64,000 nucleotides of DNA from positions 25,429 to 89,428 of IMG/VR virus record IMGVR_UViG_3300008110_000166; one strand, given 5' to 3'. The notes under the pieces were generated by a model. That model was not told where the DNA came from, made no database searches, and saw only the letters and a program-made list of their open reading frames with translations. Origin of the DNA: a virus. Positions 25,321 to 64,000 of the stretch are shown piece by piece. Both the position numbers and the translations under genes were made by a program. Each line of letters starts with the position of its first letter. Position 1 is the first letter of the stretch.

Positions 25321-25452
25321 TTATTTATCAGTTTCTTTTTTGACAACCTCGTCCTGCACGTCCACTTCCTCTTCTTCATACCACTCTATGTGGTTCTGTT
25401 CTCCGAGGTCTGTCCGTTCAAGATTTATTAGTTTTCGTACTCTCTTTTTCAT
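25321..25452 (-). CDS. 43-aa charged small protein
   Basis: Starts MKKRVRKLINLERTDLG and ends acidic then Lys-rich (YEEEEVDVQ, KKETDK). ATG overlaps the TGA of the upstream gene (TGATG). Function unknown. Confidence 0.5.
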   Translation of the reverse strand: MKKRVRKLINLERTDLGEQNHIEWYEEEEVDVQDEVVKKETDK

Positions 25453-39727: not shown

Positions 39728-40065
39728 TACTTAAATTCAGCTTTATTCAGGCATGCGGTTGATGGGTTCTCTACATCATCAGAGGAGTAAATACGGGCCA
39801 GAATTCGTCCATACTTATCATTTTTATCTGGGATTGTGTTAACAAAAACCCACTGATGGTTTGTTAGCCAGTCTTTAGTAAAAGACTTAGCCTTAAGACC
39901 CATTTCTTTTTCTGCAAGGTCTTTGGTTCTTGATTCAGGAGTATTCACTCCATACAAACGAACACGTATCTTGTGATGGATACTAAAGCCGAGGTCTATC
40001 ATCAAGTCAATAGTGTCACCATCAACAACATTGAGGACCGTAGCCCCATACCAGAATCTTTGCAT
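39727..40065 (-). CDS. staphylococcal-nuclease-like enzyme (short)
   Basis: 112 residues. VVDGDTIDLMIDLGF, VRLYGVNTPES and NDKYGRILARIY are the family motifs with catalytic Asp/Arg/Glu present. The usual C-terminal strand and helix end early, so it is shorter than typical. Starts in the stop of the repetitive protein (TGATG). Confidence 0.78.
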   Translation of the reverse strand: MQRFWYGATVLNVVDGDTIDLMIDLGFSIHHKIRVRLYGVNTPESRTKDLAEKEMGLKAKSFTKDWLTNHQWVFVNTIPDKNDKYGRILARIYSSDDVENPSTACLNKAEFK

Positions 40066-42071: not shown

Positions 42072-42100
42072 TTGTACATTCTCCCACATGAATTTGATGC

Positions 42101-42145
42101 AAAAAAGAACCCCCGGTCTTTTTAGGGACCGGGGGTTCAACTTTT
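42101..42145. terminator. bidirectional terminator after the major capsid gene
   Basis: A perfect 12-bp stem GAACCCCCGGTC/GACCGGGGGTTC with an 8-base loop, flanked by A6 on the left and a T-run on the right, so it can stop transcripts from either side. It ends the capsid transcript and the repetitive gene starts just beyond. Confidence 0.82.
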
Positions 42146-42161: not shown

Positions 42162-43532
42162 TCAGCTTGGCTCGGCGTCGAAGTCGACTTTCACGAACGC
42201 TTCTGGACGCTTGACAGCGAGAGCGAGTCTCTGTTCTGCCAAAACGACGATTGCGTTGCGCACGAAGAAGTCTGAGTGCTGCTCCGAGATTCTGATTGAA
42301 GCCTGCTCGCGGTCGTACAGCTGTGCTGCTGTTCCGAACGCACCAACAAGGGCTGTGCCCTCGGTGATTGCTGGCGTATCAACAACTGGCATTCTCCAGA
42401 CGCGTGGCTCGCCACCCATTGCAACCGAAACTGCAACGAGGTACTGACCTTGATTGTCCTTTGTCAATTCGATGTCTTCCCAGTCGTTCGGGTGCAACAC
42501 GATGCCGGATGGCTCGTAGTAAGCGAGGAACGAGAGGGTAGCGGCACGACGAATTGCATCAGCCTTTGTGTCAGCAACTGGGCTTGTTGCACCTGATGAC
42601 CATGCGTACTCTTGAATGTTTGGCGTGTTGAGAACACCGAGGAGATTTTCTCCTGCGCCGTTACCATTCAAAATCTGGTCGTCTTCGAGAAGACGCAGAC
42701 CGTACATCAATTCGTTGTCGATGATTGAACGCAACTGTGGCTCATCGGCTAGGACGTTGCGGTGTGCAGCTTCCCAGTGTGCCAATGTGCGAATAGGAGC
42801 TTGCTCACCAACGAACGAGAATGACGACTGTGGCTTCATTGCAAACGCGTTGTTTGCGCCGTTACGCTCAGCGACAGTTGATGCTGAGTTAACACCAGCA
42901 GCAAAGCCGTAACCACCCTGAATTGGTGTGGTGAAGCCGAGCTGACGGAAGTACTCGATAACTGCTGCTGTTGTCGTGCGGACTGGGAACAGGTCACGAA
43001 CACGCTTGGTACGCATTGGCTGCGTTACCATCGCATCGCGCTGAACACTTCCGAACGTGCCCAAGCGGCTGCCTGTTACGTTTGTGTTTGGAATTGCTGA
43101 ATAGACGTCCTTAACTTGGATGCCACCTGTGAACGAAGCCTTCACCTGCCACGGAGCAACCATGTTTGCACCGTTGCGGCCATTGGCGAGTGACTTGAAC
43201 TCAGCTGACTCGAGGAACATTTCGCCGATTGACTTGATTTCTGAGCTTGTAAGCTGTGAAACCTCTGCTGCAGCAGCAGCAAATGAACCAGCAACAGTCT
43301 CAGTTGGCTGTGATGACCAAGACTCAACTGAGTCCATGGCCTGCATGCCGTCGATGAGGCTCTTGATTTCCTTGATGTCAGACATGTTCTTGTCGAACGC
43401 TGTCTTCTGTTCTGGGGTGACGACAACTGTGCCGTCTTCTACGCGGAATGAGTCCGCAATGGCCTTATTATCGGCCATCTTCGAACGAAGTGCACCTTGC
43501 AGTTCGTTCAATCTTGACTTGTCTTGCGACAT
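42162..43532 (-). CDS. major capsid protein, HK97 fold
   Basis: 456 residues. N-terminal helical delta-like part (EQKTAFDKNMSDIKEIKSL), then the HK97 body with FPVRTTTAAVIEYFR, LADEPQLRSIIDNEL and the AYYEPSGIVLHPNDWEDIELTK stretch (split here for length), and a DAEPS end. Typical length for a capsid protein with a cleaved N-terminal scaffold region. AGGAGTAATC precedes ATG; a strong terminator follows. Confidence 0.85.
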   Translation of the reverse strand: MSQDKSRLNELQGALRSKMADNKAIADSFRVEDGTVVVTPEQKTAFDKNMSDIKEIKSLIDGMQAMDSVESWSSQPTETVAGSFAAAAAEVSQLTSSEIKSIGEMFLESAEFKSLANGRNGANMVAPWQVKASFTGGIQVKDVYSAIPNTNVTGSRLGTFGSVQRDAMVTQPMRTKRVRDLFPVRTTTAAVIEYFRQLGFTTPIQGGYGFAAGVNSASTVAERNGANNAFAMKPQSSFSFVGEQAPIRTLAHWEAAHRNVLADEPQLRSIIDNELMYGLRLLEDDQILNGNGAGENLLGVLNTPNIQEYAWSSGATSPVADTKADAIRRAATLSFLAYYEPSGIVLHPNDWEDIELTKDNQGQYLVAVSVAMGGEPRVWRMPVVDTPAITEGTALVGAFGTAAQLYDREQASIRISEQHSDFFVRNAIVVLAEQRLALAVKRPEAFVKVDFDAEPS

Positions 43533-48106: not shown

Positions 48107-49051
48107 TCAGGAGACAACCTCTCGTGGCCCTGGTTTGCGCATTTTCTTGAGGGCTTTCTTCAGTTCTTCATCCATCTCTGAGATTATGTTTTGTTGAAGC
48201 ATCAGGCCCACATTTTCATTTCCAAGAGCGTTCTTGTCGTATGTTCGCGGATTCTCAATATTGATTCCATCCGGGTGAGCAATTCTGACATATTCGACAC
48301 CAGCATTCTGGTACTTGTCTTTTACTTTCTTTGCTGCTCTATACTCGCGAAGCTTCTGCATTGAAGGGGTATTCATGGAACCGCCATCGGATACGGAATA
48401 GAAATATGCAATTTCTTCTGGTGTAAACCCAAGCTTCTCAAGTCTTCCCTTTACCGAGCCTTCATTGACAACATCCGATATATCTTCTTCTTCTGCCAAT
48501 TTCTGAACCCTGGTATATGGGTAGTGAATTCCTTCAACCTCATCTTTCTTGAATCCACCAAGAATGTGGGCTTCAAATGGGTCGCGTGGTCTTTCACTTG
48601 GGTCTATTTTTCCAACTGGAGTCATTCTGCCTTTTTCGTCTCTTCCGGCATTTATTGAGGAGAAGTTCTTATCAAGCGACGCCTGCAACATGTGCACCAT
48701 CGCCTCGGCGTCTTTGCTCGAGTTGTTTATGCCATCGGTATTTATCAAGGCGTCGGCAATGTCGTCGGTATCTCTCGAGTTCATAAGCACTGGTCTATGT
48801 GCAGATGCGAGTGAATCTCCTCTTCCGTAGGACGTTCTTTGTGAAACCTCTGGTCTTAGCACTACTTCGATTTCTCCAAAAGCAGTTAGACCATCTCCCG
48901 CGATATCGTTATCTCCGATTTCAAATACCGCATCAGAGCCAATATTTCCTTTGCCCTTTGCTTTAACTCTTCGCTTTCTTTCTTCGTCATGTGAACGATG
49001 GACGACATAGCCAGATACTGGTCGTGTCGCTGATGGCATACCCTTGCTCAA
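48107..49051 (-). CDS. hypothetical head-region protein
   Basis: 314 residues. Basic start (EERKRRVKAKGKG), then alpha/beta; the end has EYVRIAHPDGINIENPRTYD and a helix with LLQQNIISEMDEELKKAL (split wording). ATGA overlap with the giant protein before it. No family recognised. Confidence 0.6.
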   Translation of the reverse strand: MSKGMPSATRPVSGYVVHRSHDEERKRRVKAKGKGNIGSDAVFEIGDNDIAGDGLTAFGEIEVVLRPEVSQRTSYGRGDSLASAHRPVLMNSRDTDDIADALINTDGINNSSKDAEAMVHMLQASLDKNFSSINAGRDEKGRMTPVGKIDPSERPRDPFEAHILGGFKKDEVEGIHYPYTRVQKLAEEEDISDVVNEGSVKGRLEKLGFTPEEIAYFYSVSDGGSMNTPSMQKLREYRAAKKVKDKYQNAGVEYVRIAHPDGINIENPRTYDKNALGNENVGLMLQQNIISEMDEELKKALKKMRKPGPREVVS

Positions 49052-52000
49052 ACCAATTCTTGACTGATATTCCTTGTTGTAGTGATTGGCTGCTCTGCCA
49101 GCTTTTTTACCCGAACTAAAAGCTGCGTCACCGAAGGGGTCATATTCTGTTTTTGCTGGTTCACTCGAAGTGACGTTGAAGATTGCGAACTTACATCAAA
49201 TCCATCAAATGGGTCATCATATTCTGTATTCGTTGATGGTGGTGTGTAATCACCGAATGGGTCGTCGTATTCCGTTGTTCCCCCAAAGGAAGGGATTGAT
49301 GTTTGAGTTCCAGTAGCTGATGGCGTATCGAACTCGTCAAAGGAATCTCCACCACCTCTTCTTCTCCCGCCGATTCGGCCGCGAACCCTTGAAGCGACTC
49401 CGCCAAGCTTTTCTTTTGCGGTTTCTCCAGCCTGTGTTACCGAACCAGGAAGGTTTTGTGTCGCCGAGCCAGCAATCTCTTTTCCTCTTCCGACAATTTC
49501 TCTTGCGCGTTCTGCGTTTTCTTCGGTGAATACTCTCTCGTCCATGAACTTTGAACCAACTGTCCATGCGTCGGCCAACGCGTCAACCACTTCGTCTGGG
49601 AGGCCCTCTGGGGCTACACGGTCGACTCCGCGCATTGCAAGTTCGGCTTGCTCTGCTGTTACGTGGCCTCTTGCCACGGCTTCCTCAAGTACTCTTTCAG
49701 CTATTTCGCGACCAGCTCTGCGAGCTACGTCTTGCGCAAGTGCGGCAGCAAAACCAGGAGGACCACCAGCTGCTAGTGCGCCAGCAAACTTCATTCCATA
49801 CTTCACGCGTTCTTTTGTTTGCTCGTCGGCGTTTGTCCGCTTAAGGGCTGCATCAACTATCTTGTCTGTAACGCGAGAGGTGAGAACTCCTGCAACTTTC
49901 CCACGTTTCCCACCAGTTCTTCCAGAAGAAAAACCGTCAACCGCAAAAGCATCGGTTCTTTGAGATAGTGGCGCAGACAGAACAGCCTCTGGGGTAACGG
50001 GTTTACCCTGTCTCTGGAGTTTGATTGCTCTAGCCATGAGCGCAGGCCCAACTTCCTTGAGCTTGTCGTCCGTGACCGTTCCGTTTTCGGTGTATCTTTG
50101 ACCTGGGCTTACCTTTTGTGAAATACCAAAAATCGGCTTCCTCCGGCCAAGAATCTGTGTTTCCTCATTTCCTGGCCCAAGAAGGCTCGTTATGTCTTTC
50201 CCTTCTTTTCCATCAACGAGCCAGGCTGTTCCACGACGGCTTGTCATCCATCTGTCATAGGCATCCCTGTCTTCTATTGTCGATGAAACCTGCAAATTCT
50301 GTCTTTCAAACTCTGATGCAACAGAGGCAATATCATTTGGAATTGTCTTTGGGGCAAAACGTCCAAAATAACCACCAGATACAATCTCTTTTCCAGCGGG
50401 GTAAGAGGATAGGAACTGTCCATCTACTCTCTCAGCCATATCAAGAACGGCTTTGTATTTGCCTAGGAATTTTTCTTCGCTTTGAATTGTGTTATCTATT
50501 TCTCTATAACCATACTCTGCGTAGGCTGATTGTGGAATGTCATAATCAAGACCATCACCACCATCAACTTTGAATGCGGAACCGATAAGGCCAAACATTT
50601 CTAGCTGTTTTGCCTCTTCTGGAGAGGAAGCCCTAAATCTTCCACCTTCAGGATTTTTATTCTTCCAGTCAGAAAGAGCCTTAAGTGCATCAAGACCTGG
50701 CTGGCGTTCATCAATTGTCTCTCTTGCTATCTCAATCTGTCGATTATTAAGACCACGGGTGTCTCCAGGTCCTTTTGACCTACCAACCATACTGCCGACA
50801 CTTCTACTTGGGTCAAGAACTCCGTCATCTAGTTCGCTTGCGCCTGCGTGGTAAACAAAGCGGTCATCTGATTCAGCGCCACCGAATATCTCATTAAATT
50901 CTTCAGAATCCGTTGAGAGTCCCTTTATTCTCTTGGCCTCTTCGCGGAGCTCCAACATGACATCATCCGGAATGTCTTCAACATCCAAAACACCTTGCTC
51001 GCGACGTATTTTCTTTCTCTTCGCAATATCTTCTTGATGCCTTGCTTCAATTTTGGAGATGCGAATCTTTTCCTTTAGGATGTCGATTATTTTTTCAGCT
51101 CCACCTCTTTCTGCAACCTCATCTGCAGTTAAGTTCTTTGGAGTGAGTCCTGGCTCGTCTGGTCCATCGACCGTCCAGTTGTTTGAAACAGATGCAACAA
51201 CACCAAGGTCGCCGCCTTTCCATTCACCTGTCTCTTCAAGTATTCTCAATCCTTCTTCCAGGTTCTCTACACGTCTTACGGCATCGTCATAGTTCTTCTG
51301 CGCTCTTTCTACGGAGCTATCGAGCTCAATTGCCCTTTGCTGTGTTCTTCCAGATGAGAAAGTAATATCTGCATTGCTTCTACGTTGTCTTGGATTGAGT
51401 CTGCGCTCAAGTCTTCTCCCAATTGCTCCGCTTTCGAGAATCACGTCATCTGGGTCATCTGGCAAAAACTCACCAGAATTCATGAATGAATCAAGTTGCG
51501 TTTCTGACATTCGAACACGTGGTCGCTTGTCTATCCCTTCGTGGAACTCAACCGCAGCATCTTCAATCTTCTGCGCAATTTGTTCTGGAGTTGAACTGAA
51601 AATTATTCTCGCTACCGATGGGTCAACGGAGTCTTTTGTTGCATCCGGCCACAAGTCTGATGCGTCCTCCCCGGAAAGCAGGTTCTTAACAGAATCAACG
51701 GTGGATTCAACTTTCTTTCGTCTCGAAGACTTTCTCTGTTCTCGTGTTTGTGGAACGCCAAGCGCCTCTGCTCCTGATGCCGGATTGTCGGGAACAACAC
51801 CAGATGAAGTCTTGTATGGCGCTCTTTTCTTTGAGCCAGGAACATGGTTTTCATCGAAGTCTGGGGGTTGCGGAAGATTGGCTATTATCTCACCGCGTTT
51901 TGCTAGTTCATCATCAAGGGACCTGAGCGTTGCTCTGTCTGTTCCTTGGAAACCTTTTCTATCATTTGCGTAGTCTGGGTCGAGAAGATTTCTGTAGACC

Positions 52001-55000
52001 GATGCCCTGCGATTAACCAACTCATCCACGGTCATGCGGTTCACAACCCTCATCTGTGGTCTACCGGTTCGTGGGTCGACAGGGTCTGGTTTGATGTCCG
52101 CTTCGGCTGGCTGAACGAGTGGAGCCTTTGTTACTTCTGCAACATAGTCATCTGGGGCTGCTTCACCAAAAGCGCCACCAGCCTCACGTACGGTGCGAGT
52201 CGCTTCAGTGTTTCTAGATTCAATCGCGGGAGATGGTTTTGGTTGCGACGGTACAGAACTAAGGCCATTCTCTCTTCTTTGCGCAATGTACTTATCTATC
52301 GTTCTGTCTATTTTCGACTTAGTGCCCTTTGCGTGCTGAGTCGCTGCTGGCCCTTCATCCGAACCACTTGTTATGTTTGAAATTCTTGAAAGCGTGTCAG
52401 TTATGCTTTCTTGGCGCTCAATCCTGGCAACGATTGTCCCATCTTCACGCCTATCGACTACGCGAAGTCTCATTCCGGGTGGGAGTGTTGCAAATCCAGA
52501 AGTATCGTCCTTGCTTCTTGCGTCACCGCGTGAAAGTATCGCCTTATCGCCTTTTGCTACCTGGATAACTACACGATGTTTCTTTTCGGTTCCCCATCTG
52601 TTTCGTATGTCTTCACCATCAGCATATTTTGCTACACCCGTTAGTCCTGGCTTTTCTTCAGTAATGACACGACCCTTTACTATTTCAGAAACGAATATCG
52701 TGTCTGGAATTACAGCCGTATCATCGTCAGCAATGTCAACATAAACAGTTGCATCTACTTCGAAATTATCTGTCACTTCAGCCTGCTCGAAAGCCTCCAA
52801 TGCAGGTATTAGCACGTTCTCAATTTGCTGCTCTAGTGAGGCGTTATCGATATTTTCGCCATTTATCTCAGCCGCTCCACGCTGAGCTTTTCTGTGTTTA
52901 CGATTAATCTCTTTGACAGCAGAAACCTGTTCGCTTTGCTTCATAATGCGTGTTATCGCTGGGCCGTCATCGCCTTCAACTGTTACTGCATCTTCTGTGC
53001 GCTCTATCTGTTTAACAGCTTCTTTTTGCTTGTCGGTCAGCTTGGAGTCAAGGTCTTTTCTAGTTTGTCTTGCATATGTTCCAGACGAACGTGAATTCTT
53101 GAACTTTTTAGGCTTTGCGATTACTCGCTCTGTTTCGGGAACAACGATGTCAAAAATCTTCTTCTCAAGTTCACGTCGCTGGGCGGCCCATGGGCGCTCA
53201 TCTCCTGAGTCGACTCGTAGTTTTTTGAATGCGTCTCTAAATATCTTCTGTTGCTTCTTTATCTTTTCACGTTCATCTTTTGATGTTGCTGGGTCCTTAA
53301 GGAGAATTTCAAAGTCAGCAAGTTTTCTAATTAGTCCGTCTTCGTCAAGGCTCGAAGACAGTTCCTTGGCCTCTTTTGTCTCTCGCTCATCCATGCGAAC
53401 CTTAAGTTTTTCTGGGTCGAGAGTTCCAGTAACTTCTCGTCTTTCGTCGATAAGTTCACGCATTCTCTTTTTGTTTGCAGACCTATTCTCGTCTCCAGGT
53501 CTACCAAATCTGTCGTTCCATCCACGCTCAATAATCTTTTGAGTTTTATCAAGCTCCGTCATTTTGTTTCTGTTTTCAATTCGTGCAGGGTCGTCAGACG
53601 GAACGCCCGCAGAATCCATTCTTGACCAATCATTCGATAGGTCTTCTTTATATTCCTCGATATTCGTCAGTGCCGCAATTATCTGGTCCTCGGTAGTGGT
53701 CGGGTCGGTAGCAAAATCTTCCGCCCTCTTGAGCCTGCCCTTTGCTTCAGCGCGTTCACGCTCTCTAATAACAGCTCTTGTTTCTCCGAGTATTTCCCTA
53801 TCTGGGCCAACGTTTGCGTAGTAACTCTCTTTGATAATTGCTAGACCCTCATCTGCGGAGAGTCTTCTTTCTGTAATGTACTTTTGGTCAGACTGTTCGT
53901 CCATCCACTCCAGTGCTGCGTCAATATCGTCACCGTAGATGATTCCAAGGTCTCTGAGTGCGTGCAACTCGGCAAGTGCTTCAAGGGCCCAAAGCTCAGC
54001 GCCATCATCATCGTTGAAATAGTCTTTTGGATACTCTCCGGCCAAAAATGCCACAACATCAGTTCTGGATAGTGCATTTTTCAATGACTCCAGGTCAATT
54101 GAATCCCCATCTGATTTCATCAATGCTGCAATCATTCCACCAGTCAGGTCTTTCACGTCCTCAACACGCGCAAGAGTTCCGTCTGATTTCTTTACCTCAA
54201 TGAACCCATTGGTTTCAATTTGCCTCTTTGCTTCAGTGGTAAATCTTGCCATTTGAATGGTGTGTGCTATTTCGTGTTTAGCAATATGGCGAGCGTAGGC
54301 TCGTTCTTCAACCATCCCAGCTAGTTGCTTGGAATGACCATCGACAGTGACAAGGAAGTCAGAAAGAACTGTTGCCGCTTCTGCATCGGTTCTAGCGCCA
54401 ACAACATCAATTCTTAGGCGCTCATTAGGTGCGAGTTGCGGAAGCATTGCTTCTTGGTTGGACATTATTTGTGGAATATGGAATGTCATTACACCGGAGA
54501 ATCTTTGGGTATCTTCCGTTATTCGCAAATTAGCGTTTGCTTCATCACCTGGGTTTAGTTCCCATCTGAATTCGATGTCATTGACTGAACGCATGTGTTC
54601 TGGGTCGGCGACGAAAGAATCTAGAGCCGCTTCGAGGATTGCTCTTTCTGTTTGGTAGTAGCGCTCTGCATCTGCCTTTATCAGGGCATTCTGTCTTTCT
54701 GGAGAAAGTGCTGAAAACCCTGGGACCTGGTTTAGCCTGGCACGCATTACTAGATTGACTTGCTCTTTTGTTGGTCTGTCACCATCTCCGTGTCTAACGT
54801 TTAGCGTCCACGCTCCACTTGCTCGGAGTTTGTCAAGCGCTTCGTATAGGTCTTCGTTCGTAGCCATTCTTTCAGGGGTACGCATCACATCTAGGTCGGT
54901 CATTAAGTCAGAGATGATTTTGTCTTGCTGCTTCAATCTGTCTTGACCACGAATCATCCCGTCTACGAAGACACGGCTATTTCTGTCGTTCAGGCTCGCT

Positions 55001-55917
55001 TCGCGCCACTTCTTAATGTTTCTAATGCGCTTGCCATTTTCGTCGCGCCAGACAGTTCTTCCAAGACCTGGAATACCACCGTTATCGATATAAGAAACAA
55101 AGTTGAAGAAGTTTTTGACGTTATTTCTAAACGTGCTTTCATCACCAATTTCTTTCGCTTTATCAAGGGCAAAGTTAAGAATTTCACTTGATGAAATACC
55201 GAAGCAGTTTGACCCCATGCTGTCGGTGAATTGGTTTGCTGCAGGCGTCCCTGGAGGGCATCTGAATTTATTCGCTTCGTCGACGATTACTCCGAATGCA
55301 GCAGCAGCTCTGGCAAGAAGAGAACGACCACGTGAGCCAATTGTTTCTCCTGGAAGTCTTTTTACTTCTGGGGAATCAGTTTGTTTTGCCGCATTGCCAT
55401 TAAGACTGAATTGGTCAACTGGCTGTTCGGAAGATTGAATTAATTCATTTGTTTTTGAATTGACTTTGTATTTTCTAAAACGAATTTTTGGCTTGCTCGC
55501 CAACCCACGTGCATACTCATCTGGGTTTGATGGTTTCGGGTCTTCAAGCCATCCGAAGTTTGGTTGCTTCGTATTTTTCAGTCTGCTAATCAGGCTCGGC
55601 GTGAGGTATAGGGAGCGACCCTCTTCCCATTTTTGATTTTCTATATATCTGATTCCACCGCGCTCTTCAACTAGGCCGGATGGGGCGCCAGTATTAACAC
55701 GCTTCTTGTTATCAGTGTCCTGATACGTCTCGCTTCCGCTTACGTCCGATAATGCCTTAATGGAATACGCGGCATCTAGAGTTGGTCGTGAAGATGAAGC
55801 AATGAGTGCACGCTTAAATGCGATTGCTATCTCATTAAAGTCTTTCCTACCAGCAAGCTTAAGCTCAAGCTCTTCTGATGTGATGACCCTGATTTTGTAG
55901 AACGGGTTACCCGCCAT
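49048..55917 (-). CDS. giant capsid-region polyprotein with HExxH zincin
   Basis: 2289 residues. A Cys motif (KFRCPPGTPAANQFTDS then GSNCFGI, about 220-250) resembles one in the 671-aa protein. Near residue 546 KHEIAHTIQ is an HExxH metalloprotease-type site with a downstream ALAELHALRD acidic ligand candidate. Much of the rest is charged, repetitive and disordered. F-S-S-G-R motifs occur near 51350 and 49920, the latter followed by a basic C-terminal domain. Likely packaged or used in capsid maturation; head position supports this. Confidence 0.65.
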   Translation of the reverse strand: MAGNPFYKIRVITSEELELKLAGRKDFNEIAIAFKRALIASSSRPTLDAAYSIKALSDVSGSETYQDTDNKKRVNTGAPSGLVEERGGIRYIENQKWEEGRSLYLTPSLISRLKNTKQPNFGWLEDPKPSNPDEYARGLASKPKIRFRKYKVNSKTNELIQSSEQPVDQFSLNGNAAKQTDSPEVKRLPGETIGSRGRSLLARAAAAFGVIVDEANKFRCPPGTPAANQFTDSMGSNCFGISSSEILNFALDKAKEIGDESTFRNNVKNFFNFVSYIDNGGIPGLGRTVWRDENGKRIRNIKKWREASLNDRNSRVFVDGMIRGQDRLKQQDKIISDLMTDLDVMRTPERMATNEDLYEALDKLRASGAWTLNVRHGDGDRPTKEQVNLVMRARLNQVPGFSALSPERQNALIKADAERYYQTERAILEAALDSFVADPEHMRSVNDIEFRWELNPGDEANANLRITEDTQRFSGVMTFHIPQIMSNQEAMLPQLAPNERLRIDVVGARTDAEAATVLSDFLVTVDGHSKQLAGMVEERAYARHIAKHEIAHTIQMARFTTEAKRQIETNGFIEVKKSDGTLARVEDVKDLTGGMIAALMKSDGDSIDLESLKNALSRTDVVAFLAGEYPKDYFNDDDGAELWALEALAELHALRDLGIIYGDDIDAALEWMDEQSDQKYITERRLSADEGLAIIKESYYANVGPDREILGETRAVIRERERAEAKGRLKRAEDFATDPTTTEDQIIAALTNIEEYKEDLSNDWSRMDSAGVPSDDPARIENRNKMTELDKTQKIIERGWNDRFGRPGDENRSANKKRMRELIDERREVTGTLDPEKLKVRMDERETKEAKELSSSLDEDGLIRKLADFEILLKDPATSKDEREKIKKQQKIFRDAFKKLRVDSGDERPWAAQRRELEKKIFDIVVPETERVIAKPKKFKNSRSSGTYARQTRKDLDSKLTDKQKEAVKQIERTEDAVTVEGDDGPAITRIMKQSEQVSAVKEINRKHRKAQRGAAEINGENIDNASLEQQIENVLIPALEAFEQAEVTDNFEVDATVYVDIADDDTAVIPDTIFVSEIVKGRVITEEKPGLTGVAKYADGEDIRNRWGTEKKHRVVIQVAKGDKAILSRGDARSKDDTSGFATLPPGMRLRVVDRREDGTIVARIERQESITDTLSRISNITSGSDEGPAATQHAKGTKSKIDRTIDKYIAQRRENGLSSVPSQPKPSPAIESRNTEATRTVREAGGAFGEAAPDDYVAEVTKAPLVQPAEADIKPDPVDPRTGRPQMRVVNRMTVDELVNRRASVYRNLLDPDYANDRKGFQGTDRATLRSLDDELAKRGEIIANLPQPPDFDENHVPGSKKRAPYKTSSGVVPDNPASGAEALGVPQTREQRKSSRRKKVESTVDSVKNLLSGEDASDLWPDATKDSVDPSVARIIFSSTPEQIAQKIEDAAVEFHEGIDKRPRVRMSETQLDSFMNSGEFLPDDPDDVILESGAIGRRLERRLNPRQRRSNADITFSSGRTQQRAIELDSSVERAQKNYDDAVRRVENLEEGLRILEETGEWKGGDLGVVASVSNNWTVDGPDEPGLTPKNLTADEVAERGGAEKIIDILKEKIRISKIEARHQEDIAKRKKIRREQGVLDVEDIPDDVMLELREEAKRIKGLSTDSEEFNEIFGGAESDDRFVYHAGASELDDGVLDPSRSVGSMVGRSKGPGDTRGLNNRQIEIARETIDERQPGLDALKALSDWKNKNPEGGRFRASSPEEAKQLEMFGLIGSAFKVDGGDGLDYDIPQSAYAEYGYREIDNTIQSEEKFLGKYKAVLDMAERVDGQFLSSYPAGKEIVSGGYFGRFAPKTIPNDIASVASEFERQNLQVSSTIEDRDAYDRWMTSRRGTAWLVDGKEGKDITSLLGPGNEETQILGRRKPIFGISQKVSPGQRYTENGTVTDDKLKEVGPALMARAIKLQRQGKPVTPEAVLSAPLSQRTDAFAVDGFSSGRTGGKRGKVAGVLTSRVTDKIVDAALKRTNADEQTKERVKYGMKFAGALAAGGPPGFAAALAQDVARRAGREIAERVLEEAVARGHVTAEQAELAMRGVDRVAPEGLPDEVVDALADAWTVGSKFMDERVFTEENAERAREIVGRGKEIAGSATQNLPGSVTQAGETAKEKLGGVASRVRGRIGGRRRGGGDSFDEFDTPSATGTQTSIPSFGGTTEYDDPFGDYTPPSTNTEYDDPFDGFDVSSQSSTSLRVNQQKQNMTPSVTQLLVRVKKLAEQPITTTRNISQELV

Positions 55918-55932
55918 TCCGGGTCCCCTTTC

Positions 55933-57363
55933 TTAAATCAAGTCTGTTTCAGCTTCGAGAATCTGGAACTCTGCAAGAGAAGCGAGGAACTCTGCCTGAG
56001 TTGTTTCATCAGCAATTTCTTCTGACTTCTCTGATGCGCTCCAGTTTTCCGGAATGAGGTCTTCTTTCCCGAGGTCCTTTGCGCGCTTCATGATGTGGCG
56101 CTTGGCGGCTTCCTTATCCTTTGCACGACCGTAGGCCTGGATTGCATTGCGCAAGTCGCCTTCGTTCGAAATTGGATACGAGCCATCTGGAAGTGCTGTA
56201 CCTTCCTTGGCCATTGCTTCTCTTTGCTCATCGGAGAAAGCTCGTTTGAGGGCAATCTCTGCAGCCTCGGCCTCGATGTCTTCTGCCTCTTCTGGTTCGT
56301 ACTTGTCGTATCCAAGTATGTCGCCATCTAGCGCAACGTAAACATCGTACGACTTGCCATCGAATCCTTCGATTTCAACTGCATAGGCATCGATTCCTTC
56401 GAAGTTGTCTGGCTCTACAGCAACCACATGGCCATCAATTGACTTGACTGCAATTTCAGCAGCTTCTGTGAAGCTAACAAGGTTCAATTCATCGACGGAG
56501 CTCTTCTCCCCAACAAGTTCATCGTCGAGTCGATGCCAGCCCATTACCTCTGCCGTGGTTCCGTCAATGAAGGCTTCGTACGGCTTTCCGTCCTTGCCCA
56601 TTACGTCAACAACAAACATGTCTGCGTCTGCAGAGTAACCAGAGTCAATCACTTGACCATCAAACATTTCTTCAGCCATTCCTTCGACATGAAGAAGTCC
56701 TGGAAGACCCTTTTCCGAAACACATCCGCCTGGGCAGTCGTCGCAAACAGAAGTTGAGCCAGGGTAGCCCTTGCGGTCAACCGCGCAAACATAACCATGC
56801 TGACCGAGGTCTGCCGCCTTCATCCCCATGGATGCGATACGACGCTTGCGGAATTTGTCCATAGCGCCATTCATCTTTTCTTCCATGTCCGCTGCATCTT
56901 CGAGGTCTTCGTCTTCCTCGTCTTCCATCATTTCTTCGTCATCTTCTTCGGACATCTTTGAAGACTTGCGCTTCTTGAACTTGCCCATCATGATGTTTTG
57001 CTTTTCAGACTCTTCGTCTTCCATTTCCTCTTCGGAGTCCTCCATGCCGTCTTCCATCTCAGTGTCCATGTCTGACTCTTCGTCATCCATTTCTGCCGAT
57101 TCTGGCATAGCACCCATACGCTTCTTTTTCTTTGGCATCATTTCCATGCCGTACATCTTCTCTTCGTCGTCCATCATTTCTGAGTCATCCTCTTCCATGT
57201 CGACAGCAGGTACCATCTTCATCTCTACGGCCATAGCACCACATTTGCCGCATACCTTTGCGCCCTTTACGTAGCCACAGGCATCTCCAGCAAGACCTTT
57301 GGCGCATTTCATAACAGCACCCTCGCTATCAATGCTGACTGTCGCTTTCTCGTCGTAAGCCAT
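55933..57363 (-). CDS. acidic scaffold-like protein with PepSY-like repeats and DUF6582
   Basis: 476 residues. N-terminal zinc site (CGYVKGAKVCGKCGAM), then a long Glu/Asp/Met-rich stretch, a CDDCPGGC cluster, two PepSY-like repeats (YEAFIDGTTAEVMGW, YDVYVALDGDILGYD) and a C-terminal region with REAMAKEGTALPDGSYPI and RAKDKEAAKRHIMKRAK typical of DUF6582 in actinophage capsid proteins. Lies before the capsid module; a scaffold or maturation role is inferred. Confidence 0.65.
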   Translation of the reverse strand: MAYDEKATVSIDSEGAVMKCAKGLAGDACGYVKGAKVCGKCGAMAVEMKMVPAVDMEEDDSEMMDDEEKMYGMEMMPKKKKRMGAMPESAEMDDEESDMDTEMEDGMEDSEEEMEDEESEKQNIMMGKFKKRKSSKMSEEDDEEMMEDEEDEDLEDAADMEEKMNGAMDKFRKRRIASMGMKAADLGQHGYVCAVDRKGYPGSTSVCDDCPGGCVSEKGLPGLLHVEGMAEEMFDGQVIDSGYSADADMFVVDVMGKDGKPYEAFIDGTTAEVMGWHRLDDELVGEKSSVDELNLVSFTEAAEIAVKSIDGHVVAVEPDNFEGIDAYAVEIEGFDGKSYDVYVALDGDILGYDKYEPEEAEDIEAEAAEIALKRAFSDEQREAMAKEGTALPDGSYPISNEGDLRNAIQAYGRAKDKEAAKRHIMKRAKDLGKEDLIPENWSASEKSEEIADETTQAEFLASLAEFQILEAETDLI

Positions 57364-57498
57364 AAACCAAAGCTCCTTGCGCTAATTGGTCACAGACGGC
57401 CGCAAGAGCCAACTGTTTATTGAATATTCTTTATAAGAGTATAACGCAGAGCACTCTTTATACGGGAAGTATCAAAAAAACGGAATTTATATAAATGA
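57364..57498. other. intergenic region between giant polyprotein and scaffold-like gene
   Basis: Contains on the minus strand an AT-rich ATTTATATAAAT palindrome after the giant gene, a TATAA/TTATA plus GAGT/ACTC inverted stretch (about 57430-57465) that may terminate or regulate, and AAGGAGCTTTGG ahead of the next ATG. A promoter is likely but its boxes are ambiguous. Confidence 0.45.
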
Positions 57499-60400
57499 TT
57501 AACGTTTCGTATTTTGATTGTCAACTAATCTTAAAAGTTTTTCCCATTGGTTTGCAGAGAGAAATCCATCGCGGTCGAACTGCTGAACAAGACTTGTGGC
57601 AAAACCACTCCACTTATTATTCCGTGCCCAGAAAATTAATTCATTCTGCATGCGTGGAGTTATGTTGTCTGGAGCGCCATTGTTCTTTCGGCCTGATGAA
57701 AGTGCTTCTGTTGATTCACGACCAGCTTTTGCAACTCTCCGCGAGGCTCTTCTTCCGCTTGAGAAGTCGGTTCCGCGAACATCGTCAAGAGTAAAATTGG
57801 TATTTAGCTCGCCATTGATGGTGTCGAGATGTCTTGCCATATCCACTTCTGAATATCTTGGTGGCATGCCGCGAGATATCTTCGCATCTATGGACAATGC
57901 TTTATCCGGAGTGTTTATTTCTTTTCGGAAGTTGCTTGAGCCGAGAATTCTGGCGAGCTTGCTGTCAGATATCTTCGCCCCTTGCCCCTTCAAAAGCGCG
58001 TCAAGACGTTTGTGGAATTCGATTTTGCCCATCGACTGGTCGAAGGCCCTGCCGGCCTCTCCCCAGATTTGTTCAGCATTTTCGATAAGGCCAAGGTCCC
58101 TGAATACTTCTGCGTAAGCAGCAGGTACACCATCCGTATTCCAGCTACCAATTGTTGTACTGGTAACAGTGATTCTTCCGTTGGTGCGATTCTTGATTTC
58201 CTCCATCATCGCTTTTCTATCACCAGGTTCAACACCGAGGAATTCTGCGAATTTCTGGATTGTGAAGTCACTCTTGCGGAAACTTCCTGCAAGATTGCTC
58301 TTGTCTGACGACCGTCTAACCGGTGCGGCTGAAGGAGTTGGTGCCTCTGGGGCTCCTGGTGCGTTGACGGTAGATGGACCATCTGGTATTTCAACATCAA
58401 GCGGAGTGCTCAGACCGTAGACATACTCACCATCTGCCATGAGTTCGTCAAATTCGGCCTTATCTATCTGCTTGTCATTCACGTCATACCAATATGGAGA
58501 CGCATTCCATCCCCATATTGCCTGCATGTATCCATCTGTCTTCATTAGAGTCTTTGGGTCACTAGCGCCACCCATTAGCATCTGAACGAGTTCGTATGCA
58601 TCAGTATCGGATATCGATGCACCTTCCTTGGACATTTTCTTGAGGTCTTCTCCAGTCATTCCGAGAAGTTCACCAAGCATTTCTGGTGTCATATCAACAA
58701 ATGTCCGCTCGTCGTCGACGAATCTCTCTCGCCCAAGAAGCTGAAGAAGTGGTGCTATCGGAACCTGCCATGTATCCAGCGGTCCGCGCATGTCGTTGTC
58801 TGATACGTTTCCTGCTTTTGTTGGAGTGTCTAGGCGCTCAAAGTATTTCTTTAACTGTTTTGCATCTGCATCCGTAACAGGTAAGCCAACCCTTTTGCCC
58901 GATGTAGTCCTTCCTGATGAGAATTCAGAAGCCTCTGGACCGCTTCGACGCTTGCTCGGAACAGTCTTTGCACGCATTCTCAGGCCGTCACGGTAAGCCT
59001 GCATCTCTCCATCCGACATTGGTCGGCGCTTTGAACTTGCTGAACGCTTTTTACGTCCAGCAGAGAAACCATTTTGTAACGTAGCCCTTTTCTCACGACC
59101 GATGATTTTCTTCATGTCATCGAAAGTTATATTGTCTTTCTCAACCGCATAGTATTCATCAGCGAGCTCGTCTTCCGATGGGCGATAGTCGCGCTCTTCA
59201 CCTCGTGGTCCTCTAGCCTCAAATCCCCAGTCGGTTGATTGATATATCTCGTTCAGTTCATCATCGGATGGTGCCCCAACGAATTCATCAACAATTTCTT
59301 CAACACTGTGGTTATCCCAGAATTCAGCAATGTCATCAGCTGTTGCTCCTGTTTCTGGGTCAACAAAATCTGTATTCAATTCAGGATATTTTTTGAGTGC
59401 TTCCGCATATGCCTCTTCTGAAGCATTATTAGGGAAATCAAATCTCTCGTTGTTGAGGTCGTACCCATTAAGTCTGAAGCTGCTAATCTGCCGCTTGATA
59501 TAAGCCTTCTCAGCATCGCTGTGCTCAGCGTACGAACGCATCGGTGGAAGAGAATCGATATATTCCTGCCTGCTTCTACCTGAGGAGAATCTTTCTCTGT
59601 ATACCTGCTTGCCATCGCCCTTTTGAACACCAGGCTGCCTTGGGTTTACAGGAAGTTTTGCTCCATCGATAAGTCCTTCAATCTTTTCCAGATTGAAGCT
59701 TCTGTACTGGCCGCTTTCTTCATCAACACCGATGAAGTAAATGCCGCCTTCTTTTTTGGCTTTTATACCAGTTGGGTAAATTGTGCGGTCTTTGCCCTTG
59801 TACTTGAACTTGACTGGCTTGCCCTGAGCGCGAACCTCATTCAGGTCATACAAGTCCGTTGGGACGTACGTGTTCTTGATGATTTCACGAGCATTTGAAC
59901 CAATCTCGTCATCTCTTCCAGCAGCACCCTTTACGTTCGGGATTGTTGCAGGGTCGGCGTCGTTGTATCGAGATACGCGACCCGCCGAGAATCGGCTTTC
60001 CTCGCGCATGAAGTCTGATTGCAGGTCAGCAGCATGGTCTTGCCAGTCCTCCGCAGACCAATTAGCTGTTTCCTCGTCAAACTGGCGAGATATCTCGTCC
60101 CAGCTCCACATCATGTCTTCTTGCTTTCGACGTTCGTCAGCCTCTGCCCAGCTTTGCCTTGCTAGTTCATACTCGTCATCTCGGCGCTTTGATTCTTCGT
60201 CAAGAAGTTTCTGGACGCGCTCAAGGTCGTCATTTTCGACTGCTTCGCTATACGCTCTCTTGAATTCTCTTCTTCCATCTTCGTAATCCTGAATGAAGTC
60301 GGCCATCTCTTCTGCTGAATCAAACGAACGCGACACTCCACCAAAATCTCTGTCGATGTTGTCGTCGTCACCACGGTCTTCGTCGTCGCCGTAATCATCA

Positions 60401-63400
60401 AAGACAAGTGAATCTAGGTGCCATTTACCAGATGCATCTTGTCCAGCATGCCATCTTCCGAAACTTCCTAGTTCACGGGAGTCGCGAACAAAGTAATCCT
60501 TTTCGTATTGATTTCTGCCTTCTGGATATGTGAATCCTTCAAACTCACCAAGTATTCCGTCGTTGGGCTTGCCCATTACATCAGCAAGTGATGTTCTGTT
60601 TCCTTCAGCGTCTCTCATGAAGCGTGGACCAAACGGTCTACCGTCTGGAGCCATTCTTCCTGATGAAAGTGGTGCAGCAACTTCTGGCATGCTTGGAACA
60701 AGGTCTTTGTTTCCTGTAAGGACGCCCTTTTCTGTTCCATTCTTGCCGAGTTTCTTTTGCATCTTTGGTGATTTACCAATGACAAAATCGGCTGCTTTTT
60801 GTGCATCGCCGAAAGCTTGCTGGAGGGCGTTCGGGTCACTCTTTAGTGCTTGCAACCAGTTCGCAAGATATTTGGCATGGTCTTCACGTGGCTCTGCTGA
60901 AACTCCTAGTGCAGCAAGGAAGAATGCAGATGCTATTTCTGCAACTAGTTCTTCACGCGCATATGCTTCGTTTCCGAACATGTTCATGTTTGGACGATTT
61001 AGCCTTGATGAGTGACCGGTCCAGTGCATCATCTCGTGTGCGAGAGTTGCGTAGTAGCCCTCTCTTGACTTAAATGATTCAAATGGCGGCATTGATATTT
61101 CGTCGGTTGATGGCCTGTAGAAAGCGCGACCATCTGTGCTGATATTTACAATTGCGCCGACTTCTGCAAGTGCTTCTTCAAGCTCCTGCACTCTTTCTGC
61201 TGGGTCGAGTTGTTCACCCTTTAGGGCGTCCATATCTATACCGTCTACTTGGTCGGCGTTAAATACATACCCGACTTTAAAGAAGACGAAACCAGACTTG
61301 ACTACAGTGCCGTCTTTGTCTTTCTTAGGAGGAACGATTGTGGGAATGAATATTTGCGTTCCCTTTTCGCCCTTGCGTACAGAACCGCCCAACTTTTTCC
61401 ACTGCTCAAACCCTGCCCACATCGGCGTTTGATAACCCATGTCCTGCTGAGTGAACATAAGCATGAGCGCGTTTACGTTGGTGTATGGGCGATTCTTGTT
61501 CGATGGATTACTTGGAACGAATCCAGACTTATGCCATGGGAATTCCCAGCTATTTGGGTCGGCACTTTCAAGCATCTTGATGAGTCGGTCCTGAACTGCC
61601 TTATAGACCTCATCCTGCTTGCCAGAAGAGAGTCCCTCTCCAGGGAACATCCCCTCCATTGGGTTCTTGAATGCACCACTTCTTCTTGCTGATGCAAATT
61701 CTGGATTCTCATTTCTCCATGCTTCAGCTTGTGCGTCAAGGTCCTTGAGGAGACGTTCATGGCGTTCTGAGCCTTCAATGACTTGACCAGGTGTAAGCCC
61801 GTAATCTTTCGCAATATCCTCTGCTGACTCTCCAGCGCCGATACGTGAATAGAACAGTTCGTCTGCTCTTTCTTGCGCAGCTTCGATTTCTGCAAATCGC
61901 TGCATGTCTTTTGAGAACTCTTCAACATCTATATAGTCCTGAACGAGACTTGAGTCAACTGGCGTGTCGAGTGTCCCACGCATGCGGGCCATATGGCGCT
62001 GTTCGGCCTGTCTCACAACCTGACGCGGCACTCCAAGTTCATTGGCGACATCTTCAAGTGAGGCGCCCTCCATTCTTCTATTGAAGATTTCCTTATCAGT
62101 TGCGCCAATTTTTGGAAGTTTTGCAGCGGCTCTTTGGCCTCGCGTTCTTCCCGATGCAAACGATGCGTCAACGTCGGAAACATCGTCCCTATTTTTAAGA
62201 ATCTGGCCCATTTCTGGATTTACTGTTGGGTCAATATTAAATACTGATGACGCAACACGAGTTCTACCTGAGGAAAATCCGAGGTCTGATTCTGCCTCAT
62301 CGGCGTCATAAACTTGGTCGTAGTTCCAAGCGCTAGTTGCTTTTCCGTAATCTTTGTCGGCCCACTGCTTGGCTGATTCAAGATTCGCAAATCCGAAATC
62401 ATGTTCAGTATCCATCTGGTACTGGCCGCCCTCGCGAACAGCATCATACGTACGGGTTACATAGAACTTGTCGTCGTCGCCCTTTGCAATGGTGTACAGA
62501 CCATCGATTCCTGGCGCATCTGCTTCAAAACCATTATCGGTTTTCTGCCACTTGCCGAGTTTGTCCCCAGCGCGTCCAGAAGAAAAATCAGTTCCAGCAG
62601 AGGTTTTAGGACGGTCTATAAACCTGACGGCATTTTCCAAATCTCTTGGTTCTGGAACACCAGCATCCCTAAGTTCTGAGAGTCTGAGATTATTTTCTTC
62701 TTCTTCTTGGTTGAGCGTTCGCATCACCTTTGCGTGACTTGACTCAACTAGCTTTCGTCCCTCCTCAAGCTGCGCCTCTTCAAGGTCATAGATTCCGCGA
62801 CTCAGTGACCTAATGTCGCTAGCGTCAGAAGCAAGAAGCGGGCCGCTGACATCGAGGTCGCTCATTATGGACGAATGCGCTCCATCGAGACTGTCCGCAA
62901 GGTCGCTGATATGACTAAATTTCTGTTCAAGAACTTCGTCCTCGTCATAGAGGTTTTCTATTTCAGCAAACTTTTTGTCGATGCTGGATGGTGAGAACGG
63001 ATTCTCCACATCTGAAGCCCCTAGTGATGAAAAGATATCGTCAAGAGTCTCTTTTCTATTTTCGATATCGTCATACTCTTCTGAGTATTTTCCAATTGCA
63101 ATTTCGAGACCAGCAATTGCCGTGTCGTAGTCGGAAAGAATGTCCGTGACATCTTCGTCTTCTGTGACATCAAATAAATTGAATCCACCACGTTCTGGCT
63201 TCTTGCCGTCATACGCCCTCGTTGCAATGTCATTCATCTCTTTTGAGAGTTGACGCATGAGGTCATCTGCTTCACCAACCCTGTCAAGCCCGATTTCTCT
63301 ACGTTGTCTTATTCTGTAAAGAAGGTCTGTATCCCCGGTTCCAGAATTAAGTTCATCTAGTCTTTGGCGTGCAGCAGACTTTTCCTTTTCGGAAATACGG

Positions 63401-64000
63401 CCAGATGAGAAAAAATCTCTTCCAGTTGCTTGTGGAACACCTCGCGTATCGGCACGCGTTGTAGGTGACGGCTCTCCAAGATTTCGGGTTTGCTGCTCGT
63501 CGAACAGTCTTTCGTTGATATTGTCGGCGACCACTTCTTCAATGCGGCCCTCTAGTTCTGAGTCCCACTTAGGGTCGTCAGGGTTCATGCCCATGCTTGT
63601 TAGATAGTCAGCAGCGTCTTGCTCGTATTCTTTACGTTCATCAGCAGACATGTTGTCCATGAAGTCGTACACGCGGTCTTCTTCTCGTGGGTCAAGGTCA
63701 CGTGAGAATTCATTTGTGCGGCCAGATGAGAAGATTCCTTCGTCAAAATCGCGCTGACTTCTTCCTACGCTTCTTTCAAGTCTGTCCCTAGACCTTTCAT
63801 CGTCGGACATGGTACGGGCGCGGACTTGTGCGTCAAAAAGGGATTGCTGAAGATTCTCAAGAAATACAAGTTTATTTTGGCCCTCTATAGACTCATCTAC
63901 AGATAATTCATCAATCATCTCTTCAACAGAGGTGTTTATCCATGGCATGTCCTCATTGGCTGAGGCCCACCCTTCAACTGCTGAGTCCAGCTGATTACCA
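57499..64000 (-). CDS. giant ArdC/zincin polyprotein with repeated FSSGR motif (5' end cut)
   Basis: At least 2166 residues; the frame stays open to the right window edge, so the true start is outside. It contains an ArdC-like N-terminal domain (SADPNSWEFPWHKSGFV, GGSVRKGEKGTQIF) followed by a zincin HEMMHWTGHS site, HTH-like segments (SLEDVANELGVPRQVVRQ, AEDIAKDYGLTPGQVI), and a WYL-like piece (VKFKYKGKDRTIYPTG). F-S-S-G-R or close variants recur about 14 times at the borders of these segments, suggesting proteolytic processing. ArdC domains bind ssDNA and oppose restriction, as in known polyvalent proteins. Confidence 0.75.
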   Translation of the reverse strand, partial: GNQLDSAVEGWASANEDMPWINTSVEEMIDELSVDESIEGQNKLVFLENLQQSLFDAQVRARTMSDDERSRDRLERSVGRSQRDFDEGIFSSGRTNEFSRDLDPREEDRVYDFMDNMSADERKEYEQDAADYLTSMGMNPDDPKWDSELEGRIEEVVADNINERLFDEQQTRNLGEPSPTTRADTRGVPQATGRDFFSSGRISEKEKSAARQRLDELNSGTGDTDLLYRIRQRREIGLDRVGEADDLMRQLSKEMNDIATRAYDGKKPERGGFNLFDVTEDEDVTDILSDYDTAIAGLEIAIGKYSEEYDDIENRKETLDDIFSSLGASDVENPFSPSSIDKKFAEIENLYDEDEVLEQKFSHISDLADSLDGAHSSIMSDLDVSGPLLASDASDIRSLSRGIYDLEEAQLEEGRKLVESSHAKVMRTLNQEEEENNLRLSELRDAGVPEPRDLENAVRFIDRPKTSAGTDFSSGRAGDKLGKWQKTDNGFEADAPGIDGLYTIAKGDDDKFYVTRTYDAVREGGQYQMDTEHDFGFANLESAKQWADKDYGKATSAWNYDQVYDADEAESDLGFSSGRTRVASSVFNIDPTVNPEMGQILKNRDDVSDVDASFASGRTRGQRAAAKLPKIGATDKEIFNRRMEGASLEDVANELGVPRQVVRQAEQRHMARMRGTLDTPVDSSLVQDYIDVEEFSKDMQRFAEIEAAQERADELFYSRIGAGESAEDIAKDYGLTPGQVIEGSERHERLLKDLDAQAEAWRNENPEFASARRSGAFKNPMEGMFPGEGLSSGKQDEVYKAVQDRLIKMLESADPNSWEFPWHKSGFVPSNPSNKNRPYTNVNALMLMFTQQDMGYQTPMWAGFEQWKKLGGSVRKGEKGTQIFIPTIVPPKKDKDGTVVKSGFVFFKVGYVFNADQVDGIDMDALKGEQLDPAERVQELEEALAEVGAIVNISTDGRAFYRPSTDEISMPPFESFKSREGYYATLAHEMMHWTGHSSRLNRPNMNMFGNEAYAREELVAEIASAFFLAALGVSAEPREDHAKYLANWLQALKSDPNALQQAFGDAQKAADFVIGKSPKMQKKLGKNGTEKGVLTGNKDLVPSMPEVAAPLSSGRMAPDGRPFGPRFMRDAEGNRTSLADVMGKPNDGILGEFEGFTYPEGRNQYEKDYFVRDSRELGSFGRWHAGQDASGKWHLDSLVFDDYGDDEDRGDDDNIDRDFGGVSRSFDSAEEMADFIQDYEDGRREFKRAYSEAVENDDLERVQKLLDEESKRRDDEYELARQSWAEADERRKQEDMMWSWDEISRQFDEETANWSAEDWQDHAADLQSDFMREESRFSAGRVSRYNDADPATIPNVKGAAGRDDEIGSNAREIIKNTYVPTDLYDLNEVRAQGKPVKFKYKGKDRTIYPTGIKAKKEGGIYFIGVDEESGQYRSFNLEKIEGLIDGAKLPVNPRQPGVQKGDGKQVYRERFSSGRSRQEYIDSLPPMRSYAEHSDAEKAYIKRQISSFRLNGYDLNNERFDFPNNASEEAYAEALKKYPELNTDFVDPETGATADDIAEFWDNHSVEEIVDEFVGAPSDDELNEIYQSTDWGFEARGPRGEERDYRPSEDELADEYYAVEKDNITFDDMKKIIGREKRATLQNGFSAGRKKRSASSKRRPMSDGEMQAYRDGLRMRAKTVPSKRRSGPEASEFSSGRTTSGKRVGLPVTDADAKQLKKYFERLDTPTKAGNVSDNDMRGPLDTWQVPIAPLLQLLGRERFVDDERTFVDMTPEMLGELLGMTGEDLKKMSKEGASISDTDAYELVQMLMGGASDPKTLMKTDGYMQAIWGWNASPYWYDVNDKQIDKAEFDELMADGEYVYGLSTPLDVEIPDGPSTVNAPGAPEAPTPSAAPVRRSSDKSNLAGSFRKSDFTIQKFAEFLGVEPGDRKAMMEEIKNRTNGRITVTSTTIGSWNTDGVPAAYAEVFRDLGLIENAEQIWGEAGRAFDQSMGKIEFHKRLDALLKGQGAKISDSKLARILGSSNFRKEINTPDKALSIDAKISRGMPPRYSEVDMARHLDTINGELNTNFTLDDVRGTDFSSGRRASRRVAKAGRESTEALSSGRKNNGAPDNITPRMQNELIFWARNNKWSGFATSLVQQFDRDGFLSANQWEKLLRLVDNQNTKR

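Follow-up and report, generated by a model that had tools for sequence, protein, structure and literature searches.

Polyvalent proteins are multi-domain phage proteins with, e.g., ArdC-N, MPTase zincin, helix-turn-helix (HTH) and helicase domains; they have been proposed to be packaged and then set free by peptidases that they contain, and have already been likened to RNA-virus polyproteins (Iyer et al. 2017, PMC5512222). In the known examples, a prohead protease recognizes a single short word in the various head proteins that it cuts, and this word differs between related phages, i.e., AXE in SPN3US, SXE in phiKZ and a related motif in T4 (PMC5694885, PMC10052503). In phage P1, the Dar system brings large antirestriction cargo into the head, and proteolytic processing has been reported for DarA and DdrB (PMC9024508, PMC5512222). 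Here we analyzed 64,000 nucleotides of viral DNA (positions 25,429 to 89,428 of IMG/VR record IMGVR_UViG_3300008110_000166, hereafter the window) that encode two giant proteins, giant 1 and giant 2, in which the short motif FSSGR and its variants are repeated. We consider it probable that this motif, [LFM][SA]SG mostly followed by R or K, marks the processing sites of a phage head polyprotein that would be cut by its fused S78 prohead protease.

Giant 1 resembles polyvalent proteins in its domain set (ArdC-N, MPTase, HTH and, in relatives, a helicase); its gene lies in the head cluster, and the protein may be packaged. However, the assemblin-like peptidase of polyvalent proteins, where there is one, is given as always C-terminal (PMC5512222), a feature that does not strictly define the group, whereas the protease of giant 1 is N-terminal and adjoins the portal gene. 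A repeated border motif with lineage variants is likewise not described in the text of that paper that was accessible and is present in these giants. With T4, phiKZ and SPN3US, whose protease can cut itself, the locus shares one short word per phage in several head proteins (FSSGR in giants 1 and 2 of the window, FSSG in the relative G036). Protease and substrates are separate genes there and the sites mostly free N-terminal propeptides, whereas in giant 1 they are fused and the motifs bracket separate cargo modules. The Dar system is alike in its large antirestriction cargo but uses separate genes and an unfused protease, and what is described for DarB is a signal for localization to the capsid rather than a border motif in many copies. 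HK97-type S78 proteases (PF04586) agree with giant 1 in profile match, conserved His and Ser and the order portal-protease-capsid; they are normally encoded by a short separate gene, whereas in giant 1 the domain is fused to about 2900 residues of cargo. Already known are the domains themselves and the concept that multi-domain proteins are packaged and set free by peptidases (PMC5512222). What is new is a prohead protease at the N terminus, a border word that is repeated and takes a different form in each lineage, and an A-run at the protease-cargo junction. We found no paper on these features in the open-access literature searched, which is weak evidence of absence as subscription papers and preprints lay mostly outside this scope; the literature search also returned no paper on LSSGR in connection with phages.

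A six-frame scan of the window found [FL][SA][SA]G[RK] thirteen times in the partial giant 1, where the initial annotation had counted fourteen, and twice in the 2289-residue giant 2, as counted before. Elsewhere in the long open frames there was one more copy, FSSGK, in a frame continuing giant 2. Further giant 1 motifs lie past the window edge (MSSGR in the related contig L011; LSSGK, FASGR and LSSGR in L009/L010), and a complete giant 1 should therefore hold about 18 copies. In the giant 1 of L009, FSSGR was observed 6 times against 0.003 expected (log10 p −17.6). The top word in 30 residue-shuffled copies reached a log10 p of only −6.2, whereas the motif scored −15 to −29 in well-endowed giants, which confirms the motif as such. 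The gaps between motifs vary from 21 to 386 residues, i.e., the even spacing initially put forward as a mark of a processing signal does not exist. At the DNA level, 19 of 19 copies examined were distinct 15-mers. We therefore conclude that the motif acts at the protein level, and an origin as repeat DNA or recombination seed was ruled out.

The motifs occupy the borders between recognizable units, where they had first been noticed. Not one of 63 motifs in six giants fell inside a Pfam domain (16.7 expected, P 3e-9), with some of the domain matches below the Pfam cut-off and with a P value that is too optimistic because the six giants are related. AlphaFold models of two stretches (mean predicted local distance difference test score (pLDDT) 57 and 53) placed 10 of 11 motifs in segments with pLDDT below 50; the single exception touches the first ArdC helix. 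In the second model, the motifs occupy short gaps between helical domains. The model of the protease segment (mean pLDDT 53) was used only for the contrast between linkers and domains. The initial annotation had named motifs inside folded domains as an outcome that would speak against its reading, and neither the Pfam domains nor the AlphaFold models bore this out. Moreover, the SF1 helicase module lies ahead of ArdC in L033 and behind it in L042, and in both a motif follows 22 residues after the helicase.

To follow the motif in related giants, we searched IMG/VR with the protease region and obtained 77 loci, in which complete giants span 2.9–3.7 thousand residues. In an unbiased word search, LSSG was the top enriched word in most of the richly endowed giants. 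It occurred in 161 distinct contexts, whereas scrambled words mostly occurred in 0–3 (LSGS 0, LSTG 0); GLSS had 23 contexts but overlaps with G-LSSG. The family core is [LFM]-[SA]-S-G with K or R favored on either side. In cultured relatives, no motif array was found within the genome regions read. Both sites flanking the ArdC-zincin bear the motif in every one of 20 related giants (31–98% identical), a count in which the aligner may favor the motif. Serines of the motif were better conserved than serines of the flanks, with identities of 0.67 versus 0.36 in the closest and 0.54 versus 0.17 in the most divergent group. This was determined in a reference-based pairwise test in which the second sequence was free to lack the motif; it replaced a test conditioned on the motif's own presence, which was circular. 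Phe at position 1 was conserved no better than flank Phe and swaps with Leu.

The window cuts the giant 1 gene and the contig stops 1 kb farther, so we read the gene start from L009, which is 98% identical. There, giant 1 is a 3061-residue open reading frame (ORF) with a head maturation protease at its N terminus (phrog_80 1.2e-25; Pfam S78 9.8e-10). The S78 match (PF04586) covers residues 26–175 of 3061 and scores 39.2 bits against a curated cut-off of 21; the other in-frame giants scanned scored 35.9–44.7 bits. The catalytic His64 and Ser128 are invariant in 21 relatives, a test that rests on these two residues. In L009, giant 1 follows the genes for the terminase large subunit and the portal, i.e., it lies in a portal-to-capsid head cluster. 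The ArdcN and MPTase-PolyVal matches in giant 1 are far above the Pfam cut-off, and several conflict-related domains (ArdC-N, MPTase and HTH, with a UvrD-like SF1 helicase in relatives) are combined with S78 on one giant polypeptide.

Two additional relative scans (541 relatives for one query) followed by a word search gave protease-linked giants with other lineage-specific repeated words, namely S[TM]RS, GLAS[ST], GF[AS]S, RGM[AR]SR, GMRSxR, GMSS, GSKSTT and LRSSG. As these class patterns were picked from the word search itself, the class table describes and does not test. Words are uniform within each lineage. In a tree built from the protease region, LSSG arises once (100/100), and all word classes together need 9 changes compared with a mean of 19.7 after shuffling. 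In L220, the ArdC-zincin is flanked by SKSST and SKSTT, and an exonuclease by the same word. The word hence follows the genome and not the cargo, because the ArdC-zincin of L220 has GSKSTT-type words instead of LSSG. Uniformity within genomes, together with drift along the protease tree, therefore points to one trans-acting recognizer that would read all copies in a genome.

A conserved A-run separates protease and cargo. It measures A9–A11 in most LSSG lineages (L009 ~5877, protein residue ~557), and in the STRS and GMSS lineages an A7 lies beside the end of the protease frame, with protease and giant in separate overlapping frames. This split arrangement was seen with 17 distinct protease sequences; junctions were examined in L009, L079 (11350–11386), L072, L075 and L214–L217. 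The L079 junction reads TCA AAA AAA TAA, as in a textbook minus-1 slippery site, and in the fused L009 copy either alternative frame hits a stop within a few codons. The arrangement suggests that free protease and protease-polyprotein would be made in a set ratio, possibly by a programmed frameshift or by slippage during transcription. In places with A9 in one contig and A10 in another (L072 versus L051), homopolymer errors may play a part.

How could such a protein work? Giant 1 would be translated as one chain that starts with the S78 prohead protease and continues with cargo modules (HTH, ArdC-zincin, WYL-like; a helicase in relatives) joined by motif-bearing linkers, and would be incorporated into the prohead alongside portal and capsid. 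At the motifs, S78 would then cleave both giants, giant 1 in cis and the separate giant 2 in trans, and the freed modules would stay inside the head, be packaged and later be ejected. Each lineage would have drifted to its own word with all copies in a genome following, as expected for a single reading enzyme. We infer cleavage, enzyme identity, scissile bond and packaging alike from sequence and gene context; a bond after Ser, after Gly or after the basic residue would each be compatible with the data. S78 is the most likely reader because it is the only peptidase present in every word class, whether fused to the giant or translated from a frame directly ahead of it. Most of the word classes can be fitted with a hydrophobic-x-Ser core. 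The processing signal suggested in the initial annotation is thus partly supported, now by the N-terminal S78, the head cluster, the inter-domain linkers and the conservation above flanks, no longer by spacing. More tentatively, these uncultured tailed phages could be a large, undescribed family that packages self-cleaving head polyproteins, with a capsid-maturation protease fused, directly or via A-run frameshift or slippage, to interchangeable modules and a genome-wide cleavage word that differs by lineage and co-evolves with its reader. Any module set between two words would then be freed in the head.

Several points weigh against processing by S78. The S78 domain is 75–93% identical to that of L009 across classes with unrelated-looking words, and for several LSSG members it is no closer to L009 than outside the LSSG class. 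As S78 and the capsid boundary hardly change between classes, the specificity would have to change without visible co-variation. Known prohead examples with their x-x-Glu words cut after Glu, whereas no class word of the giants has a conserved Glu. Moreover, the hydrophobic-x-Ser core was fitted post hoc and GSKSTT and STRS fail at the hydrophobic position, several lineages (e.g., L135–L170) have weak words only, and the proteins of the domain test are not independent. The near-constancy of S78 and capsid boundary would suit a short linear motif that acts as docking or encapsidation signal, repeated so that a partner such as capsid, scaffold or a different head protein could hold the large flexible giant in the prohead without cleavage. 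Docking also predicts uniformity within genomes, lineage drift, placement in exposed linkers and a word common to giants 1 and 2, and a capsid localization signal is known from DarB of phage P1 (PMC9024508). Nevertheless, it gives no reason for the highest conservation at sites next to single modules or for a prohead protease at the start of the chain, and, with capsids 70–90% identical to that of the window across classes, a capsid partner must tolerate very different words. We regard docking as rather unlikely, though it accounts for much of the observed pattern.

If the motifs are cut, the internal zincin (MPTase-PolyVal) could do so in place of the prohead protease, as proposed for DdrB of phage P1. 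All complete giants of the LSSG class bear the zincin, autoproteolysis has been proposed for MPTase domains (PMC5512222), and other metallopeptidases may have escaped detection. However, words are just as regular in the STRS, GLAS, GF[AS]S and GM[AR]S classes, which gave no ArdC-zincin match, and L220 has a close relative of this zincin together with another word. With so many classes lacking the ArdC-zincin, it is unlikely as general cutter, and we judge zincin cutting at the motifs improbable. Equally hard to believe is a passive linker, i.e., a by-product of module shuffling with low-complexity joints rich in Ser, Gly and Lys and no specific recognizer. The motifs are indeed Ser-rich, often stand beside R or K, and module order varies between giants. 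Still, a mere joint accounts neither for a fixed residue order nor for copies that all differ in DNA, nor for a motif that is kept while its flanks diverge and an exact word of its own in every lineage.

If the motifs are cleavage sites, they provide a sequence rule to read out the head-carried proteins of these phages. About ten lineages with different words would then offer a naturally occurring set for studying the specificity of prohead proteases, since few phages have known substrate rules for this enzyme. The giants would be a bacterial-virus counterpart of RNA-virus polyproteins, by which many small antidefence proteins could be delivered simply from one gene.

Table 1. Motif copies, domains and neighboring genes in the window.
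Feature	Position	Strand	Basis or remark
Giant protein 1, 3' part, 2166 aa	57499..63999	-	5' part with prohead protease past contig end, seen in L009 4206-13391
Motif FSSGR	63718..63732	-	giant 1, six-frame scan
Motif FSSGR	63397..63411	-	giant 1, six-frame scan
Motif FSSGR	62572..62586	-	giant 1, six-frame scan
Motif FSSGR	62263..62277	-	giant 1, six-frame scan
Motif FASGR	62146..62160	-	giant 1, six-frame scan
HTH-like stretch, Sigma70 region 4, below Pfam cut-off	61978..62079	-	Pfam
Motif LSSGK	61618..61632	-	giant 1, 6-7 residues ahead of ArdC; site in 20/20 related giants
ArdC N-terminal domain and zincin (MPTase-PolyVal)	60814..61611	-	Pfam
Motif LSSGR	60655..60669	-	giant 1, behind zincin; site in 20/20 related giants
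Motif FSAGR	59977..59991	-	giant 1, six-frame scan
WYL-like domain, just below Pfam cut-off	59674..59844	-	Pfam
Motif FSSGR	59575..59589	-	giant 1, six-frame scan
Motif FSAGR	59053..59067	-	giant 1, six-frame scan
Motif FSSGR	58909..58923	-	giant 1, six-frame scan
Motif FSSGR	57751..57765	-	giant 1, six-frame scan
Motif LSSGR	57688..57702	-	giant 1, six-frame scan
Acidic protein P0003, without motif, always between both giants	55933..57363	-	synteny
Giant protein 2 (P0002, 2289 aa), frameshift near C terminus	49048..55917	-	ORF and relatives
Motif FSSGR	51346..51360	-	giant 2, six-frame scan
Motif FSSGR	49918..49932	-	giant 2, six-frame scan
Motif FSSGK	49106..49120	-	shifted frame continuing giant 2
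Giant 2 C-terminal part past frameshift (P0004 frame)	48107..49195	-	ORF and relatives
Major capsid protein, HK97 fold, propeptide boundary region EFKSLANGRNGANM	42162..43532	-	sequence comparison

Giant 1 is followed by the acidic P0003, giant 2, a ~690-residue protein and the major capsid protein, in the same order in the 10 relatives compared. In these 10, P0002 and P0004 align to consecutive parts of one ORF of 2.2–2.9 thousand residues; since relatives hold both parts in a single ORF, the P0004 frame is the true continuation of giant 2. At the frameshift (window 49048–49195) a homopolymer is absent, and a sequencing error or a real mutation is possible. A direct search with P0002 in phage and viral collections returned zero relatives; those used here were obtained via synteny. 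Each genome uses a word variant common to both giants, i.e., FSSG in G036, FSSG[RK] in the window and LSSG in G041. P0002 also contains KHEIAHTIQ, an HExxH zincin-like signature that matches no Pfam model.

In the capsid protein, the propeptide boundary EFK[SAT]LxxG[RK]NGANM (residues ~109–124) is near-invariant across all motif classes (also in L090–L107 and L247–L267). Its LANGR resembles the motif and was considered as a sign of shared specificity; we rejected this because the boundary hardly varies between classes and hence does not speak specifically for the word of the window. An alignment to HK97 from the PDB could not locate the capsid cleavage site, as the propeptide region aligns unreliably. 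The 691-residue protein adjoining the capsid gene (window 40065–42140, minus strand) is strongly basic and repeat-rich, with several tandem units of type TRDAATRRGQTDSRRPTSADDRKRPDS.

By capsid protein, the nearest cultured phages infect Actinobacteria (Brevibacterium, Gordonia, Streptomyces), from which an actinobacterial host may be assumed for the phage of the window. A scan of bacterial genomes for the host gave four uninformative hits, of which three lay in metagenome bins and the fourth was distant. A Phycisphaerae metagenome bin (L269, 9956–18049) holds a 2698-residue giant with S78 and a GLxSxR word, either another class or a contaminating phage contig. Comparing L009 (13370–13410) with the window (57688–57950), about 65 residues of giant 1 are apparently deleted in L009, ending exactly at LSSGR, and the frame is lost. 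Finally, the giants of L182 (9974–13771) and L187 (3685–7608) carry 10–15 ANLxxA / LxGAxL repeats, like pentapeptide-repeat proteins, and Pfam confirms pentapeptide repeats in L216.

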